In this document: positions 1-38,780 of the stretch, piece by piece | Layout: every line of letters starts with the position of its first letter | Position numbering within the stretch: the stretch's first letter is position 1 | Source of the DNA: Methanosphaera stadtmanae | GTDB lineage: Archaea; Methanobacteriota; Methanobacteria; Methanobacteriales; Methanobacteriaceae | Direction: 5' to 3' | DNA: 40,640 nt | Assembly: GCA_015062825.1 (NCBI GenBank) | Contig: SUTR01000018.1 | Span: 1-40,640 of the forward strand | Made by a program: the position numbers and the translations under genes | The notes under the pieces: generated by a model | Databases searched by the model: none | Told to the model about the DNA's origin: nothing | What the model saw: the letters and a program-made list of their open reading frames with translations, nothing else

Positions 1-3000
1 TGACCTACTAAACCTTTAACAGAAGTAACAGTAGTCTTAGTACTAATCTGTGCAACATTCAATGTAGCTGTCTTATTAACTGTGAATTTATCTGCTGTTG
101 TATAGGTTGCTGTAATATTTAGCTTATTTGTATTTTGTGGAGTGTAGCTGACCGTTGCAACACCATTCTTAAATGAAACACTCTGTGCAACATTATTAAC
201 ATTCACAGCAACACTACCAGTAGTTACTGCCTTATTGTTTTCATCAGTCACTTTAACAGTTATATTACTTTTAGTTAATGCAACAGGATTACCAGATATG
301 GATAAATTAACTTTACCTATTGTGATAGTTGATGTGTTCATGGAATTTTTGTATGTGGAACTATTATAATATGTTACAGTCATATTATAAACACCCATAG
401 TATTATAATTTCTAGTTATATTAGCAACACCATTAGATAAAGTTACATCAATATCTTTACCATCATCTCCCATAAATGTGACAATACCTTCTTTTACATT
501 ATTGTTTAGTGCATCTTTTACTGTAACGGTGATAGTAACAGTCTGACCAACAAGTCCTTTGATGGATGGTACAATTGTGTTAGTACTTATTTTATTCACA
601 GTTAATGTTTCTGTGGTTGTTACGGTTATTTTATCAGGAGAAGTATAAGTGGCCCCTACATTTAATCCATTAGCATTTTGTGGAGTGTAACTGACCGTTG
701 CAACACCATTCTTAAATGAAACACTCTGTGCAACATTATTAACCTTCACAGCAACACTACCAGTAGTTATAGGTTTATTATTACTATCAGTTACTTTAAC
801 TGTTATATTTCCTTTAGTTAATGCAACCAGACTTCCAGTTATTGTAAGTTTAACATTGACAATTGTTGCAGTGAATTTAGCATTAGATGTTTTGTAATAC
901 CTGCTGTTAGAATATGTTGCAGTTATATTGTAAACTCCAACACTAGCATAAGTAGTATTAATTGATGCAACACCATCAGTTACATTTGCTGTACCTAATG
1001 TTTTACCTGTATTGTCTACAAATGTTACAATTCCTTCATTAACTTTATTATCTAATGCATCTTTAACTGTAGCATCAATAGTAATGCTGTGATTTGTTAG
1101 TCCGTTTACAGGAGTTACTGTTGTTGTTGTATTAATCCGATTTACTTTTAATGTTGTATTTGTTGTGTTTGCTATTTTGTTAGAACCTGCTTGAGTTATT
1201 GTTATATTCACATCATTGGTATTTGTTGGTGTGTATGAAATTGTTGTTGTTCCATTTGTAAATTTTGGAGTATATCTTTGGTTATTTATTGTTATATTAG
1301 CATCCACATATTCTAATGGGTTATTTAATATATCAGTTATTAGTATTTTTATGTCAGTTGGTGTGAATATAGTTAAGTTTCCAGTTATTGTTACGATGTT
1401 ATTGTTGATATTGTTGTTATCATGTACTGATGTTGTGGATTGTATTTTGTTTACTGATGCATCTCCTAATAGTCTTTTAGCATACAATGCATTGTTTGTA
1501 ACATTTGTATTATTTGAATTGATGATATTAACTGTATAATCTGATGTCACATTGATAAAGTTATTGTCTACCAGAACATTCGTTGATTTAGTAATATTTA
1601 TTCCATCACTATTATCTGATTCAAACTGAGAATTTGTAATGTTTAAATTACTTGCATTATTAACGGATGCTAATATGGAACCTTTAGGGGTTTGTCCTTT
1701 TATTATTAAGTTGTTAATTTTATTATTATTTTTTTCTACAGTTATTGCGTTTCCTGCTTTGGAAGATATTAATAGTATTTGTGTATCTATTATTTGATTA
1801 TCTGATGAGTTAATATTAATTACATTTTCTTTATTTGTATTATTGATTATTAATCCGTCAATTGTAACTTTGGAATTATTAGTTAAGCTGATTGTAGTAT
1901 TATATATTGTGTGATTGTATGGATTGGAAAATTTTATACTTGCATTGTTAAATATGAAATTCTTATTATGAATATCAGAAAAGACTTCAATCGTTTTATT
2001 ATCTGTTATTATATCTGAATTTTGTATTGCATTTGTGTCAAAAAAGTAATTATAATTATCATCAGTTAATAACAAATAATCATTTTTTACTATAAATTGA
2101 TTATTGATTGATTTAAAGTAAATGCTAGCATTACCTGTTGAATTCTTTGCTAATAAATGATTTTCAGATATGTTTAATCCAGTTACTGTTGTATTTACTA
2201 CTATAGTATATTCTTCATCAGTAGCAATTATATTGTCTGTAATGTTTAAATTTTTATTATAGTTTCTTGATCCCAAGATTACTTGTCCAGTTATGTTGTT
2301 GTTTGATAATGTTAATGGGTTTGATCCGTTAAGATATACATCCCCATTGATTTGATTGTTATTTATTGTGATGTTTATAGGTACATTTGTTCTTGAGGAG
2401 CCTTTTATTGTTATGTTATCGTTTATTGTACAGTTTTCTATTGTAATATTTTTTCTACCGTTTTCTAAAAAAACATAACCAATGGTTTGATTTGTTATTT
2501 TTACATTATCAGTAGCAAAAAGTATTTGTTTTACATTGTTGTTTTCTAGTGTACAATTTTTATTTACCCTTAAGTAACCTGTTACAGTATTGTTTATTAT
2601 TGTCAGTCCTTGTGGTGCATAGAAGTTACATCCGTTTAGTGTGTTGTTTACAACAGTTGTATTCATGTCATAGTCATGTATTTGATACATTGGATTTATT
2701 CCTTGTCCTGTATAATTTATTGTATTGTTTCTTATAGTGTTGTTTGTACCACTTAAACAAATACCATAACATATATCGGCAGGATTATCCGGTCCTATGA
2801 GTATGTTATTTTCAATTATGTTGTTTGCATTTACAATTCTGAAATCGGTTTTTCCATTTTCATCTGTTGGAAGATTTTCTACATTAAATGTGTTTAGGTA
2901 GAATATATTTCCGACAAAACCAATACCTATAATTTTATTGTTACGTATGATACAGTTATTTGCCCATGAAAGTGCTAGACTTGTACTTCCCTGATTATCT

Positions 3001-3689
3001 TTAGTGGATATAGTACTGTTTTCGAGTGTGATAAAACTTGAATTATCACGTATTGCTGTTTGACCAACACCACGTCCAACTATTCTATCTTCTACGATAG
3101 CTGATATATTGTTTATTATCATATGATTAGCATTCTTGATGAATATCTGTGAATTGTAGAAGTATATGTCAGATATATTTGTGTATGATCCACCACGTAC
3201 TACTGTAAATGCAGATACATCATCCCCTCCAAAGAAATCCCCGGAGGTAGTATTTAGACATATATATGCATCTTTTGTAGATGATATGATGTTTACGGGC
3301 TTATCAATAATCATAGAGTATTGTTCACCCAGAAACTGTCCCTGGAAATCCAAAGTATCGCCAGAGGATACTTTATCATTCAAGTATTTATTTGTAAAGT
3401 ATGTGTTAAATGTTTGATTGTTTATTACAATCGTATTTGCCTTTTTAATATTTTTTTCATTTTTTTGAATATTTGTATCATCTGTTGTTTTAATGGATTC
3501 TTGAGTTTTCTTCTCTTGTTGAAGAGTTGTTTGAGATTCTACATGAGTAGATTGACTTGTCTCTTGAATCACATCAGATGTATCAACACTTGTACTGTTG
3601 TCAGAGAGGTCCTCTGCAGTTACGGCTGATAATCCGATTATTAAAAATACAGACGTTATTACAAATAAAAATATTTTTTTATTTGTCAT
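1..3689 (-). CDS. adhesin-like surface protein, signal peptide + beta-helix + Ig-like repeats (3' end outside window)
   Basis: One uninterrupted frame runs from an ATG at 3689 off the left edge, giving at least 1229 residues with no stop. A GGAG site at 3697-3700 supports the start. Residues 1 to about 24 (MTNKKIFLFVITSVFLIIGL, then SAVTA) form a typical signal peptide. A low-complexity Ser/Thr/Gln/Lys linker follows to about residue 75. The section to about residue 700 is rich in NN, NNTI and IENN motifs with regularly spaced Ile and Asn, as in right-handed parallel beta-helix (NosD/pectate-lyase-like) domains. From about residue 780 there are Ig-like modules of about 182 residues, with KDALNNKVNEGIVTF-type and GVATVSYTPQN motifs. 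This is the architecture of Methanobacteriales adhesin-like proteins; I infer an exported, cell-surface location. The membrane or wall anchor is not seen because the C-terminus lies outside the window. The ligand is unknown. Confidence 0.9.
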   Translation of the reverse strand, partial: MTNKKIFLFVITSVFLIIGLSAVTAEDLSDNSTSVDTSDVIQETSQSTHVESQTTLQQEKKTQESIKTTDDTNIQKNEKNIKKANTIVINNQTFNTYFTNKYLNDKVSSGDTLDFQGQFLGEQYSMIIDKPVNIISSTKDAYICLNTTSGDFFGGDDVSAFTVVRGGSYTNISDIYFYNSQIFIKNANHMIINNISAIVEDRIVGRGVGQTAIRDNSSFITLENSTISTKDNQGSTSLALSWANNCIIRNNKIIGIGFVGNIFYLNTFNVENLPTDENGKTDFRIVNANNIIENNILIGPDNPADICYGICLSGTNNTIRNNTINYTGQGINPMYQIHDYDMNTTVVNNTLNGCNFYAPQGLTIINNTVTGYLRVNKNCTLENNNVKQILFATDNVKITNQTIGYVFLENGRKNITIENCTINDNITIKGSSRTNVPINITINNNQINGDVYLNGSNPLTLSNNNITGQVILGSRNYNKNLNITDNIIATDEEYTIVVNTTVTGLNISENHLLAKNSTGNASIYFKSINNQFIVKNDYLLLTDDNYNYFFDTNAIQNSDIITDNKTIEVFSDIHNKNFIFNNASIKFSNPYNHTIYNTTISLTNNSKVTIDGLIINNTNKENVININSSDNQIIDTQILLISSKAGNAITVEKNNNKINNLIIKGQTPKGSILASVNNASNLNITNSQFESDNSDGINITKSTNVLVDNNFINVTSDYTVNIINSNNTNVTNNALYAKRLLGDASVNKIQSTTSVHDNNNINNNIVTITGNLTIFTPTDIKILITDILNNPLEYVDANITINNQRYTPKFTNGTTTISYTPTNTNDVNITITQAGSNKIANTTNTTLKVNRINTTTTVTPVNGLTNHSITIDATVKDALDNKVNEGIVTFVDNTGKTLGTANVTDGVASINTTYASVGVYNITATYSNSRYYKTSNAKFTATIVNVKLTITGSLVALTKGNITVKVTDSNNKPITTGSVAVKVNNVAQSVSFKNGVATVSYTPQNANGLNVGATYTSPDKITVTTTETLTVNKISTNTIVPSIKGLVGQTVTITVTVKDALNNNVKEGIVTFMGDDGKDIDVTLSNGVANITRNYNTMGVYNMTVTYYNSSTYKNSMNTSTITIGKVNLSISGNPVALTKSNITVKVTDENNKAVTTGSVAVNVNNVAQSVSFKNGVATVSYTPQNTNKLNITATYTTADKFTVNKTATLNVAQISTKTTVTSVKGLVG
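10..1103 (-). repeat. tandem Ig-like coding repeats, period about 543-546 bp
   Basis: The same landmark (codons for GL in ...KGLVG / NGLTN) recurs at about 1099-1103, 553-557 and 10-14, so the unit is 181-182 codons. Within it, 132-226 and 675-769 agree at 93 of 95 bases by eye, far closer than the rest of the unit. This points to recent duplication or gene conversion. Confidence 0.85.
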
Positions 3690-3933: not shown

Positions 3934-5619
3934 ATGATAAAAGTAGAAAACTTGACGAAGATTTATAAATTACAAAACAATAATAAAATTAAAGCATTGG
4001 ATGATACCTCATTTGAAGTTGAAGATAATGAAATATTTGGAATAATGGGAATAAGTGGATCAGGTAAATCAACATTAATGAGAATTTTACGAGGAGTTGA
4101 GGAATTTGATGAGGGAAAAATTATCATAGATGATATGGAAATTACTCCAGAGAATTATTCCCAATATAAAAATGACTTGAAGGAAAAAACTGCAATTCAT
4201 CTACAGAGATCATTTGGATTATGGTCTAAAACAGCATTGGAGAATGTTATTCATAAACTTCATGGTATAAAAACGGGTGATGAAACAACCGCTAATATTG
4301 ATGATGTTAAGCAGGAGTATGAAGAAGAAGCATTGGATATATTAGAAACAGTAGGATTGAAGGATAAGGCAAATCATTTTGCACCAGTGTTAAGTGGTGG
4401 GGAAAAACAAAGGTTGGTTCTTGCAAGACAATTAGCTAAAAAGCCGGAAATATTATTGTTGGATGAACCTGCTACTATGAGTAGTCCTAAAAAGAAAAGA
4501 GAAGTACTTGATACTATAAAAAACATTAATGAAAAATATGGTACTACCGTTATTATAGTAAGTCATCAGCCAGAAATACAGGAATATCTTACTGATAGAA
4601 TTATGTTAATATATAATGGTAAAGTTGAAGCGATAGATTCATCTGATAAGATTATAAGTAAGTTTTTAGAAAATGAAGAAGAAATATATCCTATTGCAGA
4701 AAAGAAACGTGATGAACCTATTGTTAAAGTAGAAAATCTTACCCGTGACTTTTATCTTTACAGGGGCGGCCATGTACTTACCATAGATGATGTTTCCTTT
4801 GATGTTAAGAAAGGAGAAATATTGTCAATTATTGGGCCAACAGGTAGTGGTAAGACAGAGATGCTTCGTATGATAGCAGGATTTGAACAGGCTGATTCGG
4901 GCAATATTGAAATATTGATTGATGGACAATGGACCAATATGCAAGATTATGGTGAAAATCGTATGAAAATACGAAAAAATATGGGATTTATGCATCAGGA
5001 ATTTGCACTTACTCCACATACACCTATAATTGAACAAATAGCAACACATATTTCACCGAAGACTGATGAAACATATCAAAAGGCTTTAGATAAAGCAAAA
5101 GAAATAGGATTATCTGATGAAGCATTGGATGTGATTTATCAATTAACTGATTTGTCTAGAAATGAAGCAATATTGAAATTAGAAAAGATTAATTTAGGTC
5201 CTGAAGTACTTAATATATTATTCCCAGCAATCCCTGAGGATGAAGTAATCGAATATATCATACCAGTATTTGATGCATTAGATCTTCCACTTCCATTGCT
5301 TAATAGGCAGTTTATTGAATTGTCTGGTGGACAAAAGGTAAGGGTTGCCATTGCAACAGTACTGGCATCCAAACCAGATATATTAATACTTGATGAGCCA
5401 TTTGGAGACTTGGATCCTGTGACTTTAAGAATTGTTGCAAATTCATTGAAGAAAATTAATGAACAATTTGATACAACCATCATATTAGTTAGCCATACCA
5501 TGGACTTTGTAAAAGAGGTATCTACAAGAACATTATACATCAACAATGGAAAACTGGTTGATGAAGGAGATCCTGAAGAGATAACTGATGAATTTATTAA
5601 GGCAGAAAATGAAGAATAA
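3934..5619 (+). CDS. AtwA paralogue, tandem ABC ATPase (methyl-CoM reductase component A2 family)
   Basis: This 561-residue protein has two ABC ATPase domains and no membrane segments, the layout of component A2, the ATP-binding protein needed for reductive activation of methyl-coenzyme M reductase. Domain 1: Walker A GISGSGKS (39-46), signature LSGGEKQR, Walker B ILLLDEP, H-loop SHQ. Domain 2: Walker A GPTGSGKT, signature LSGGQKVR, Walker B ILILDEP, D-loop GDLDP, H-loop SHT. It differs from the canonical copy at 37179-38780. The D-loop of domain 1 is degenerate (ATMSSP where the other copy has TGTLDP), the four-cysteine insert of domain 1 is absent, and domain 2 carries about 55 extra residues before its signature. 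GGTG at 3920-3923 supports the start. The uspA-like gene follows within bases, so they are probably cotranscribed. The family is clear; the specific role of this paralogue is not known. Confidence 0.85.
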   Translation: MIKVENLTKIYKLQNNNKIKALDDTSFEVEDNEIFGIMGISGSGKSTLMRILRGVEEFDEGKIIIDDMEITPENYSQYKNDLKEKTAIHLQRSFGLWSKTALENVIHKLHGIKTGDETTANIDDVKQEYEEEALDILETVGLKDKANHFAPVLSGGEKQRLVLARQLAKKPEILLLDEPATMSSPKKKREVLDTIKNINEKYGTTVIIVSHQPEIQEYLTDRIMLIYNGKVEAIDSSDKIISKFLENEEEIYPIAEKKRDEPIVKVENLTRDFYLYRGGHVLTIDDVSFDVKKGEILSIIGPTGSGKTEMLRMIAGFEQADSGNIEILIDGQWTNMQDYGENRMKIRKNMGFMHQEFALTPHTPIIEQIATHISPKTDETYQKALDKAKEIGLSDEALDVIYQLTDLSRNEAILKLEKINLGPEVLNILFPAIPEDEVIEYIIPVFDALDLPLPLLNRQFIELSGGQKVRVAIATVLASKPDILILDEPFGDLDPVTLRIVANSLKKINEQFDTTIILVSHTMDFVKEVSTRTLYINNGKLVDEGDPEEITDEFIKAENEE

Positions 5620-5631
5620 ATGGTGAATATG

Positions 5632-6024
5632 ATGTATGATAGAATACTTGTTACAGTAGATGGATCTGAAGAATCAAAAAACGCTGGCTTTAAAGCTGTG
5701 GATTTGGCAAAACAATTAGATGCTACTGTTGTTGTAACACATATTATTGATCAGCGTTTATCATTTACAATAGATGACCTGGAGGATAAGGGCAAAGAAT
5801 ATATTAATATTGTACGTGAATATGCAACAGAACAAAATGTTAAATCAGAAGATCTTCTTATTTATGGAAGTCCTAAGAATGATATTATGATTATTGCAAG
5901 AAAAAGCGAAGCCGATATGATTGTTATGTCTGCACATGGAAATACTAAAGATAAAAGTTCACCAATGGGTGGCTTCACAGAATTTGTACTTAAAAATATA
6001 GATTTACCATTGTTATTATTTTAA
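5632..6024 (+). CDS. universal stress protein (UspA family)
   Basis: The 130-residue protein begins MYDRILVTVDGSEESKNAGF, the typical first strand and acidic nucleotide-site residue of UspA proteins. It ends with MIVMSAHG, a loop with GG, and the usual hydrophobic last strand. The phosphate-binding loop (GN..D...PMGGFTEF) resembles the G-x2-G-x9-G(S/T) motif of ATP-binding members only loosely, so ATP binding is uncertain. In-frame ATGs exist at 5620, 5629 and 5632. GGTGA at 5622-5626 sits five bases before 5632 and overlaps the region of the earlier ones, so I take 5632. The gene follows the AtwA paralogue directly and is probably cotranscribed. A run of T at about 6029-6048 may end the transcript. 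Confidence 0.9.
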   Translation: MYDRILVTVDGSEESKNAGFKAVDLAKQLDATVVVTHIIDQRLSFTIDDLEDKGKEYINIVREYATEQNVKSEDLLIYGSPKNDIMIIARKSEADMIVMSAHGNTKDKSSPMGGFTEFVLKNIDLPLLLF

Positions 6025-37178: not shown

Positions 37179-38780
37179 ATGAGTTTTATAGAAGTAAAAA
37201 ATGTTACAAAAATCTTCGATAATGAAGCAGTACTTGATAACATCAGCATTAATATTGAAGAAGGAGAAGTATTAGGTATTCTAGGAAGAAGTGGATCTGG
37301 AAAATCAGTTCTACTAAACATGTTAAGAGGAATACCAGAATATGAACCAGATTCTGGAGAAATCATATATAATGTAGGTATGTGTCCTGAATGTGATAGG
37401 ATAGATGTTCCATCAAAAGCTGGTGAAACCTGTAAATGTAAACATGGAAAATATGAAGCAAAGACAATCAACTTATGGAAAAGTACAAGAACAGAATTTG
37501 CATCAGTTAAAAAACGAGTTTCTATCATGCTACAAAGAACTTTCGCATTATACGAAGAGGAAAGTGTGATAGAGAACATCATGAAATCCTTTGAAAATCA
37601 AAGAGATGAGGATAACATAAATAAAGCAATAAATCTACTTAAAATGACACGTATGGAACATAGAATAACACATATTGCACGTGATTTAAGTGGTGGAGAA
37701 AAACAAAGAATCGTACTTGCAAGACAGCTAGCAAAAAATCCAATGTTATTCTTAGCAGATGAACCTACAGGTACCTTAGACCCTAAAACAGCAAAATTAT
37801 TACACAATGCACTGTTAAATGGTGTTAAAGAAAAAAATATCACAATGATTATCAATTCACACTGGCCAGAAGTAATAGAAGATTTATCAGACCGTGTAAT
37901 ATGGCTTGAAAAAGGACAAATCAGAAGAGAAGGAGATCCTAAAGGAATTGTCGAAGAATTCGTTGCTGAAATTCCATTGCCTAAAAAACATGAAGAAGTT
38001 ACAATAGGTAATCCTTTAATTGAAATGAATGACCTAAAAAAATATTACTTCTCAGTATCACGTGGTGTAGTAAAATCAGTTGATGGTGTAACATTAACCA
38101 TTAATGAAGGTCAAATAGCAAGTATAGTTGGATTAAGTGGAGCTGGAAAAACAACACTATCCAAACTTATCGCAGGACTTGTAGAACCTAGTGATGGTGA
38201 AATAAAGATTAGACTCGGAGAAGAATGGATAGATATGGCTAAAAAAGGACCTGCGCATAGAGGTCGTGTAACTCCACACATAGGTTTATTACACCAGGAC
38301 TTTAGTTTATATCCATATAAAACAATTCTTGGAAATCTTACTGATGCTATAAGTTTAGATTTACCTTCAGAATTTGCAAAAATGAAATCATTACACGTAT
38401 TAACCGCGGTAGGATTTAAGGAAGAAGAAGCATCAAAACTCTTAACAAAATATCCAGATCAGATGAGTGGAGGAGAAAGACATAGAGTTGCAATTGCACA
38501 AGTTCTGATAAAAGAACCACATATTGTAATTTTAGATGAACCTACTGGAACAATGGATCCAATAACAAGAAGAAATGTAGCAGAATCCATACTTAACGCA
38601 CGTGAAGAACTAGATCAAACATTTATAATAATTTCACACGATATGGACTTCGTATTAGAATGCTGTGATACTGCAGCATTAATGCGTGATGGAAAATTAT
38701 TAGACAATGGAAAACCAGAAGATATCGTTGATCAATTAACTTCACAAGAAAGAACAAAAATGTTAAATAAAGAGTTATAA
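37179..38780 (+). CDS. atwA: methyl-coenzyme M reductase activation component A2
   Basis: The 533-residue protein has tandem ABC ATPase domains and no membrane helices. Domain 1: Walker A GRSGSGKS (36-43), signature LSGGEKQR, Walker [15 protein letters not shown]-loop residue in NSHWPE. Inserted in domain 1 is a cysteine pair set, Cys69/Cys72 (CPEC) and Cys85/Cys87 (CKC), a likely metal-binding knuckle. Domain 2: Walker A GLSGAGKT, signature MSGGERHR, Walker [15 protein letters not shown]-loop SHD. Component A2 supplies ATP to the complex that reductively activates the nickel of F430 in methyl-CoM reductase, so it is essential for methanogenesis. The ribosome site is weak (TAGGTGCTAAATA). It is divergent from the CBS regulator and convergent with cofH. 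A shorter-motif paralogue lies at 3934. Confidence 0.92.

Follow-up and report, generated by a model that had tools for sequence, protein, structure and literature searches.

The window analysed here, 40,640 nucleotides of a Methanosphaera stadtmanae contig, carries two genes of the component A2 (AtwA) type, component A2 being the activation ATPase of methyl-coenzyme M reductase (MCR). One of them adjoins a gene for a universal stress protein (Usp), which raises the question of whether this copy is a degenerate A2, a second interchangeable A2 or an ATPase with a task of its own.

The locus and the family of its ATPase

The features to which we refer are the following.

3934..5619, + strand: second A2-type twin-domain ABC ATPase, 561 aa (family score, clade, model, fold match)
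4048..4071, + strand: Walker A, domain 1 (GISGSGKS, residues 39-46; motif)
4390..4413, + strand: ABC signature, domain 1 (LSGGEKQR, residues 153-160; motif)
4456..4494, + strand: Walker B and non-canonical D-loop, domain 1 (LLDEPATMSSPKK, residues 175-187; motif, alignment)
4834..4857, + strand: Walker A, domain 2 (GPTGSGKT, residues 301-308; motif)
5050..5319, + strand: predicted helical insert within domain 2 (residues 373-462, some 52 of them additional; alignment, model)
5320..5343, + strand: ABC signature, domain 2 (LSGGQKVR, residues 463-470; motif)
5380..5424, + strand: Walker B and canonical D-loop, domain 2 (ILILDEPFGDLDPVT, residues 483-497; motif, alignment)
5620..6024, + strand: linked universal stress protein (PF00582), starting immediately 3' of the ATPase stop codon
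37179..38780, + strand: canonical component A2 (AtwA), comparator outside the operon (TIGR03269, 832.8 bits)

The two adjoining genes, whose coordinates and adjacency the sequence-only reading had given correctly, are separated by 0 bases; because of this zero gap and the conserved gene order, they are presumably cotranscribed. A promoter and terminator scan, using a sigma-70 type model not meant for archaea, gave chance level only. The product of 5620-6024 reaches 80.3 bits against PF00582 (gathering cut-off 24; E 2.7e-22), and a convergent CbiZ-domain gene lies downstream of it. On the other side, a large repetitive adhesin-like ORF (3-3689, minus strand) runs off the window start, upstream of and divergent from the ATPase gene. 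In the window, about 32 kb separate the two A2 paralogues (3934 and 37179); in several genus-mates (G003, G008, G014) the distance is 30-60 kb. A Methanosphaera sp. contig encodes a match with 82% identity to the ATPase along its full length; the search of contigs with a single protein mostly matched unrelated ABC genes.

Against the component A2 model TIGR03269, the ATPase scores 344.8 bits, below the equivalog cut-off of 517.1. A maximum-likelihood tree built from 72 proteins puts the 40 orthologues and the 32 canonical A2 proteins into separate clades with 100/100 support; two bacterial outgroup reads, in which there were stops, had been left out. These results uphold the proposal of a distinct A2-type branch rather than a second canonical A2; for the accompanying claim that the branch derives from the activation factor, the tree, being unrooted, gives no direction. 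Canonical A2 and the paralogue are two old sisters without an order of age in this tree. The paralogue clade spans Methanobacteria, Methanopyrus-like genomes and five further families, where lineages are given as family codes and names such as Methanopyrus-like are guesses. Because Methanobacteria, Methanopyrus-like, f17, f25 and f44 genomes occur on both sides of the split, the pair is most likely older than the separation of these lineages. The window ATPase is thus firmly placed in a conserved single-copy family separate from canonical A2.

The predicted model of the whole ATPase (mean pLDDT 89.9) finds its best PDB match in component A2 of the activation complex (8s7v_K; E 4.5e-40, TM 0.74/0.80), and shares with A2 (TIGR03269; PDB 8s7v, 9h1l) two fused soluble ABC domains, the catalytic residues and the overall fold. 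The next-best folds are the twin ATPases DppD/OppD (8wdb, 8j5q), which have similarly folded, fused tandem ABC domains. These last matches, and a score of 289.2 bits against the NCBIfam model of the phosphonate transporter ATPase PhnC (cut-off 266.1), speak for an ABC importer subunit, as automatic annotation may say. However, DppD and OppD pair with membrane permeases, of which we recognised none next to the ATPase in the window and none in the neighbourhoods listed, and the protein groups with soluble A2. The PhnC cut-off is passed because two domains are summed, so that such a call for 3934-5619 is a likely misannotation, and an importer role is extremely improbable.

ATP sites, zinc loop and helical insert

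The window ATPase has all Walker, Q-loop, signature and H motifs, of which the Walker and signature motifs had been noted from the sequence. At both ATP sites, the catalytic residues (Lys, Gln, signature Ser, Glu, His) are invariant in 40/40 orthologues. The likewise confirmed deviation of D-loop 1, DEPATMSSP as opposed to DEPTGTLDP in the A2 at 37179, is a family trait: all 40 orthologues read DEP-x-x-M-x-C/G/S-P and all 32 canonical A2 proteins DEPTGTLDP. Most orthologues have DEPATM-A/S-C/S-P, f30 has DEPVTM-T/A-G-P, f17 DEPVTMTCP and the Methanopyrus-like genomes DEPAAMACP. The altered position is mostly Cys outside the window's genus, Gly in f30, and Ser only in the window's genus. D-loop 2 keeps its canonical Asp in both families, and this one-sided change makes unequal ATP sites plausible. 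The term "degenerate", which the sequence-only reading had applied, has to be dropped: all 40 orthologues, which come from different phyla, share the altered D-loop and the insert described below, so that these reflect neither chance nor erosion and constitute a conserved family signature. A pseudogene was rejected because of the invariant catalytic residues.

Most orthologues (L029, L035, L059 and others) carry one Cys in D-loop 1 (around residue 184), and many have another near the C-terminus (around 551). In the window's genus the D-loop Cys is lost and the C-terminal one mostly so; the window protein has zero cysteines. A strict rule by which loss of the D-loop Cys goes with loss of the flavoredoxin gene described below fits this genus and was rejected, as L064-L067 are without flavoredoxin and keep the Cys.

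Two elements of A2 that are visible in the 2025 structure of MCR activation are absent from the paralogue. The first is the four-cysteine loop of A2, which binds Zn in that structure (PMC12176620). It is formed by residues 69, 72, 85 and 87 of the A2 at 37179 and occurs in 32/32 canonical A2 proteins and 0/40 orthologues of the paralogue family. The sequence-only reading rightly found it missing and described it as lost, a polarity that is probably reversed. The K1-Q1 spacing of the window ATPase (46) matches that of generic ABC domains (32-53), with canonical A2 longer (76); the loop was therefore probably gained by canonical A2 and most likely never present in the paralogue family.

The second is the P-x-x-F motif (P396/F399), which clamps McrA, the A2-McrG contact being electrostatic (PMC12176620). 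We mapped P396/F399 via the printed alignment onto the P-x-x-F of the motif LPSEFAKMK. The stretch around it, 51 aa in canonical A2, is swapped in 40/40 orthologues for a region of 100-103 residues that is predicted to form helices. Extra residues before signature 2 had been noticed earlier, at about 55; the distance from Q-loop 2 to signature 2 is 109 in the window ATPase and 57 in canonical A2, which corrects the size to +52. Since the A2 value falls within the range of generic domains (49-67) and 109 does not, the insert was probably gained in the paralogue family. No relative of the insert turned up in Pfam or, by sequence or by fold, in the PDB, the insert model being a single-sequence one (pLDDT 75.8).

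The best family match and the best fold match would fit a second component A2, interchangeable with the first and activating MCR or an isoenzyme by the known route, and Kaster et al. 2011 (PMC3087415) counts several CDS as AtwA. Such a role is nevertheless improbable for a protein below the equivalog cut-off, in a separate clade, without Zn loop or P-x-x-F clamp, with a helical insert of about 52 residues and with DEPATM-x-C/S-P in place of DEPTGTLDP. In addition, the window's genome has one mcrA, so that the number of isoenzymes does not explain the paralogue.

Distribution and gene neighbours

Full-length orthologues, one per genome, are present in 142/152 sampled Methanobacteria and in 29/244 other archaeal genomes, counts that were tallied by hand from tables. 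Outside the class, 28/33 mcrA genomes have the paralogue and 28/29 carriers have mcrA, the sole carrier without a match being G208, whose close relative G168 has mcrA. Sampled Methanococci-like genomes carry it. Families f36 and f93 comprise five mcrA genomes with canonical A2 only, which means that the paralogue is not needed for every MCR. Three genomes of 97-99% estimated completeness (G002, G090, G112) have the paralogue and no mcrA or MtrE match, probably because of missing contigs. The genus-mates G010 and G016 (L025, L026) have the most divergent paralogues and an MtrE match of E about 1e-20, compared with 1e-107, possibly a decaying Mtr.

The joint absence of MtrE and the paralogue from f36 and f93, and the presence of MtrE in carriers outside the class and f17, drew attention to ATP-dependent reductive activation of the Mtr methyltransferase corrinoid. 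We mostly rejected this role, which is very improbable in view of f17: its three genomes all have the paralogue and no MtrE, and one of them lacks any MtrA match.

The Usp linkage in Methanobacteria is firm. A Usp gene lies 3' on the same strand at 46/49 loci, and within 30 bases of the ATPase at 20/20 loci of the window's genus. Genomes checked have 2-7 Usp genes, and 19 linked Usps form one clade apart from 22 unlinked ones (98/98 support). This linkage, put forward earlier as a point to check, therefore holds. The idea of a nucleotide-sensing partner fares unevenly: the ATP motif G-2x-G-9x-G-S/T reads S-2x-G-9x-G-G in the window Usp, two positions being altered, which weakens it in the window genome, and is intact in several linked Usps. 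At 18/49 Methanobacteria loci, a gene for a flavin-reductase-like FMN flavoredoxin (PF01613), which most closely resembles the FMN-binding protein 1eje, stands between ATPase and uspA; it is absent from the operon in the window's genus. Neither linkage was seen in Methanopyrus-like and other lineages outside Methanobacteria, so that the Usp link cannot be the core function of the ATPase.

The f17 genomes, three from two genera, have both A2 paralogues, and in two of them the ATPase gene is linked to MCR genes. In divergent orientation it adjoins mgmA-mmp3-mmp5-mmp15-mmp17 in G168 and mgmA-mmp3-mmp6 in G227, mgmA encoding the MCR glutamine C-methyltransferase; canonical A2 lies about 10 kb from the paralogue in G168 and G208. 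In other lineages the neighbours are unrelated. Three f30 genomes (L156, L158, L160) have a small phasin-like gene (PF05597) 3' of the orthologue, and further f30 neighbours, named by eye, resemble a GGGP synthase and a Glu-tRNA amidotransferase subunit.

The family has very probably been listed before. A "paralog of AtwA" is among the proteins that the ProPhylo marker list (PMC3226654) gives as present in all of 28 methanogens and confined to them, paralogues are mentioned for atwA in PMC4153887, and Kaster et al. 2011 (PMC3087415) lists MTH151, MTH454 and MTH1015 as AtwA, with MTH151 / MTBMA_c06010 as an AtwA CDS. Our paralogue shows the same restriction to, and near-universality in, mcrA genomes, with f36 and f93 as exceptions. 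Orthologues of the order precede a 1eje-type FMN gene, which we take to be MTH152; the link to MTH151 / GI 294496608 goes by way of this neighbour. By distribution and this neighbour, the ProPhylo entry and MTH151 / MTBMA_c06010 are very probably this family. Although it was thus very probably listed already in 2011, we found no function assigned to it in the literature, and the consulted parts of PMC3226654 and PMC3087415 give nothing on function, D-loop, insert, Usp or flavoredoxin context.

A candidate step for the A2 sister

We infer clamp action, site asymmetry, an MCR client and redox control from these patterns, in a reading whose chances we put just short of even: a cytosolic twin-ABC sister of A2 would apply an A2-like ATP clamp to another client surface or at another step. 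Two ATPs would close both domains, and the closed dimer would grip and remodel a protein client, as in A2. The helical domain at the place of the McrA clamp would serve as client reader, and the one-sided D-loop change might render the ATP sites unequal and thereby time release. The likeliest client would be MCR (or alkyl-CoM reductase) during biogenesis or repair, at a step other than that of A2. In Methanobacteria, the ATPase may be wired to the redox or stress state through its dedicated Usp and, in many genera, the FMN flavoredoxin.

The strongest support for an MCR client comes from the restriction to mcrA genomes and the mgmA/mmp neighbourhood in f17; the strongest doubt comes from the absence from f36 and f93 and from McrC complexes. 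Both McrC pull-downs from M. maripaludis reported a single A2 protein and no second A2 (PMC9584954; PMC12176620), given in one of the two as Mmp_0620. The absence from these complexes, the f30 neighbours and, in Methanobacteria, the conserved partnership with Usp and flavoredoxin would also fit a stress- or redox-linked ATPase that takes no MCR step, acts on another client (the ribosome, another metallocofactor enzyme, cofactor traffic) and is kept for other methanogen metabolism. With both known MCR contacts missing, the ATPase might just as well have left the MCR system. This serious rival is unlikely, as it leaves aside the near-restriction to mcrA genomes and the f17 neighbourhood. For M. 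marburgensis, PMC4930933 gives a 2.06-fold change of a "component A2-like protein" in its CO comparison and a higher abundance of a universal stress protein in the presence of CO; the two are candidates for counterparts of the window operon genes.

Returning to the A2 sister with an MCR-related step, it is possible, and we suggest it with reserve, that MCR is served by two ATP-driven machines. A2 would perform reductive activation; its sister would take another step, be it assembly, cofactor loading, modification or repair. The sister would recognise its client through a domain without a known fold, and in Methanobacteria it would be controlled by a dedicated Usp and a flavoprotein. For annotation, a protein that could be called A2 or a phosphonate importer ATPase is probably neither. 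MCR activated in vitro falls far short of the mature enzyme in activity, and additional factors may be needed (PMC12176620); a conserved sister of A2 that is near-universal in mcrA genomes, and that has not been reported from the published complex, offers a concrete candidate for such a factor. Genetically tractable organisms probably carry the paralogue, and its absence from f36 and f93 provides a natural control.
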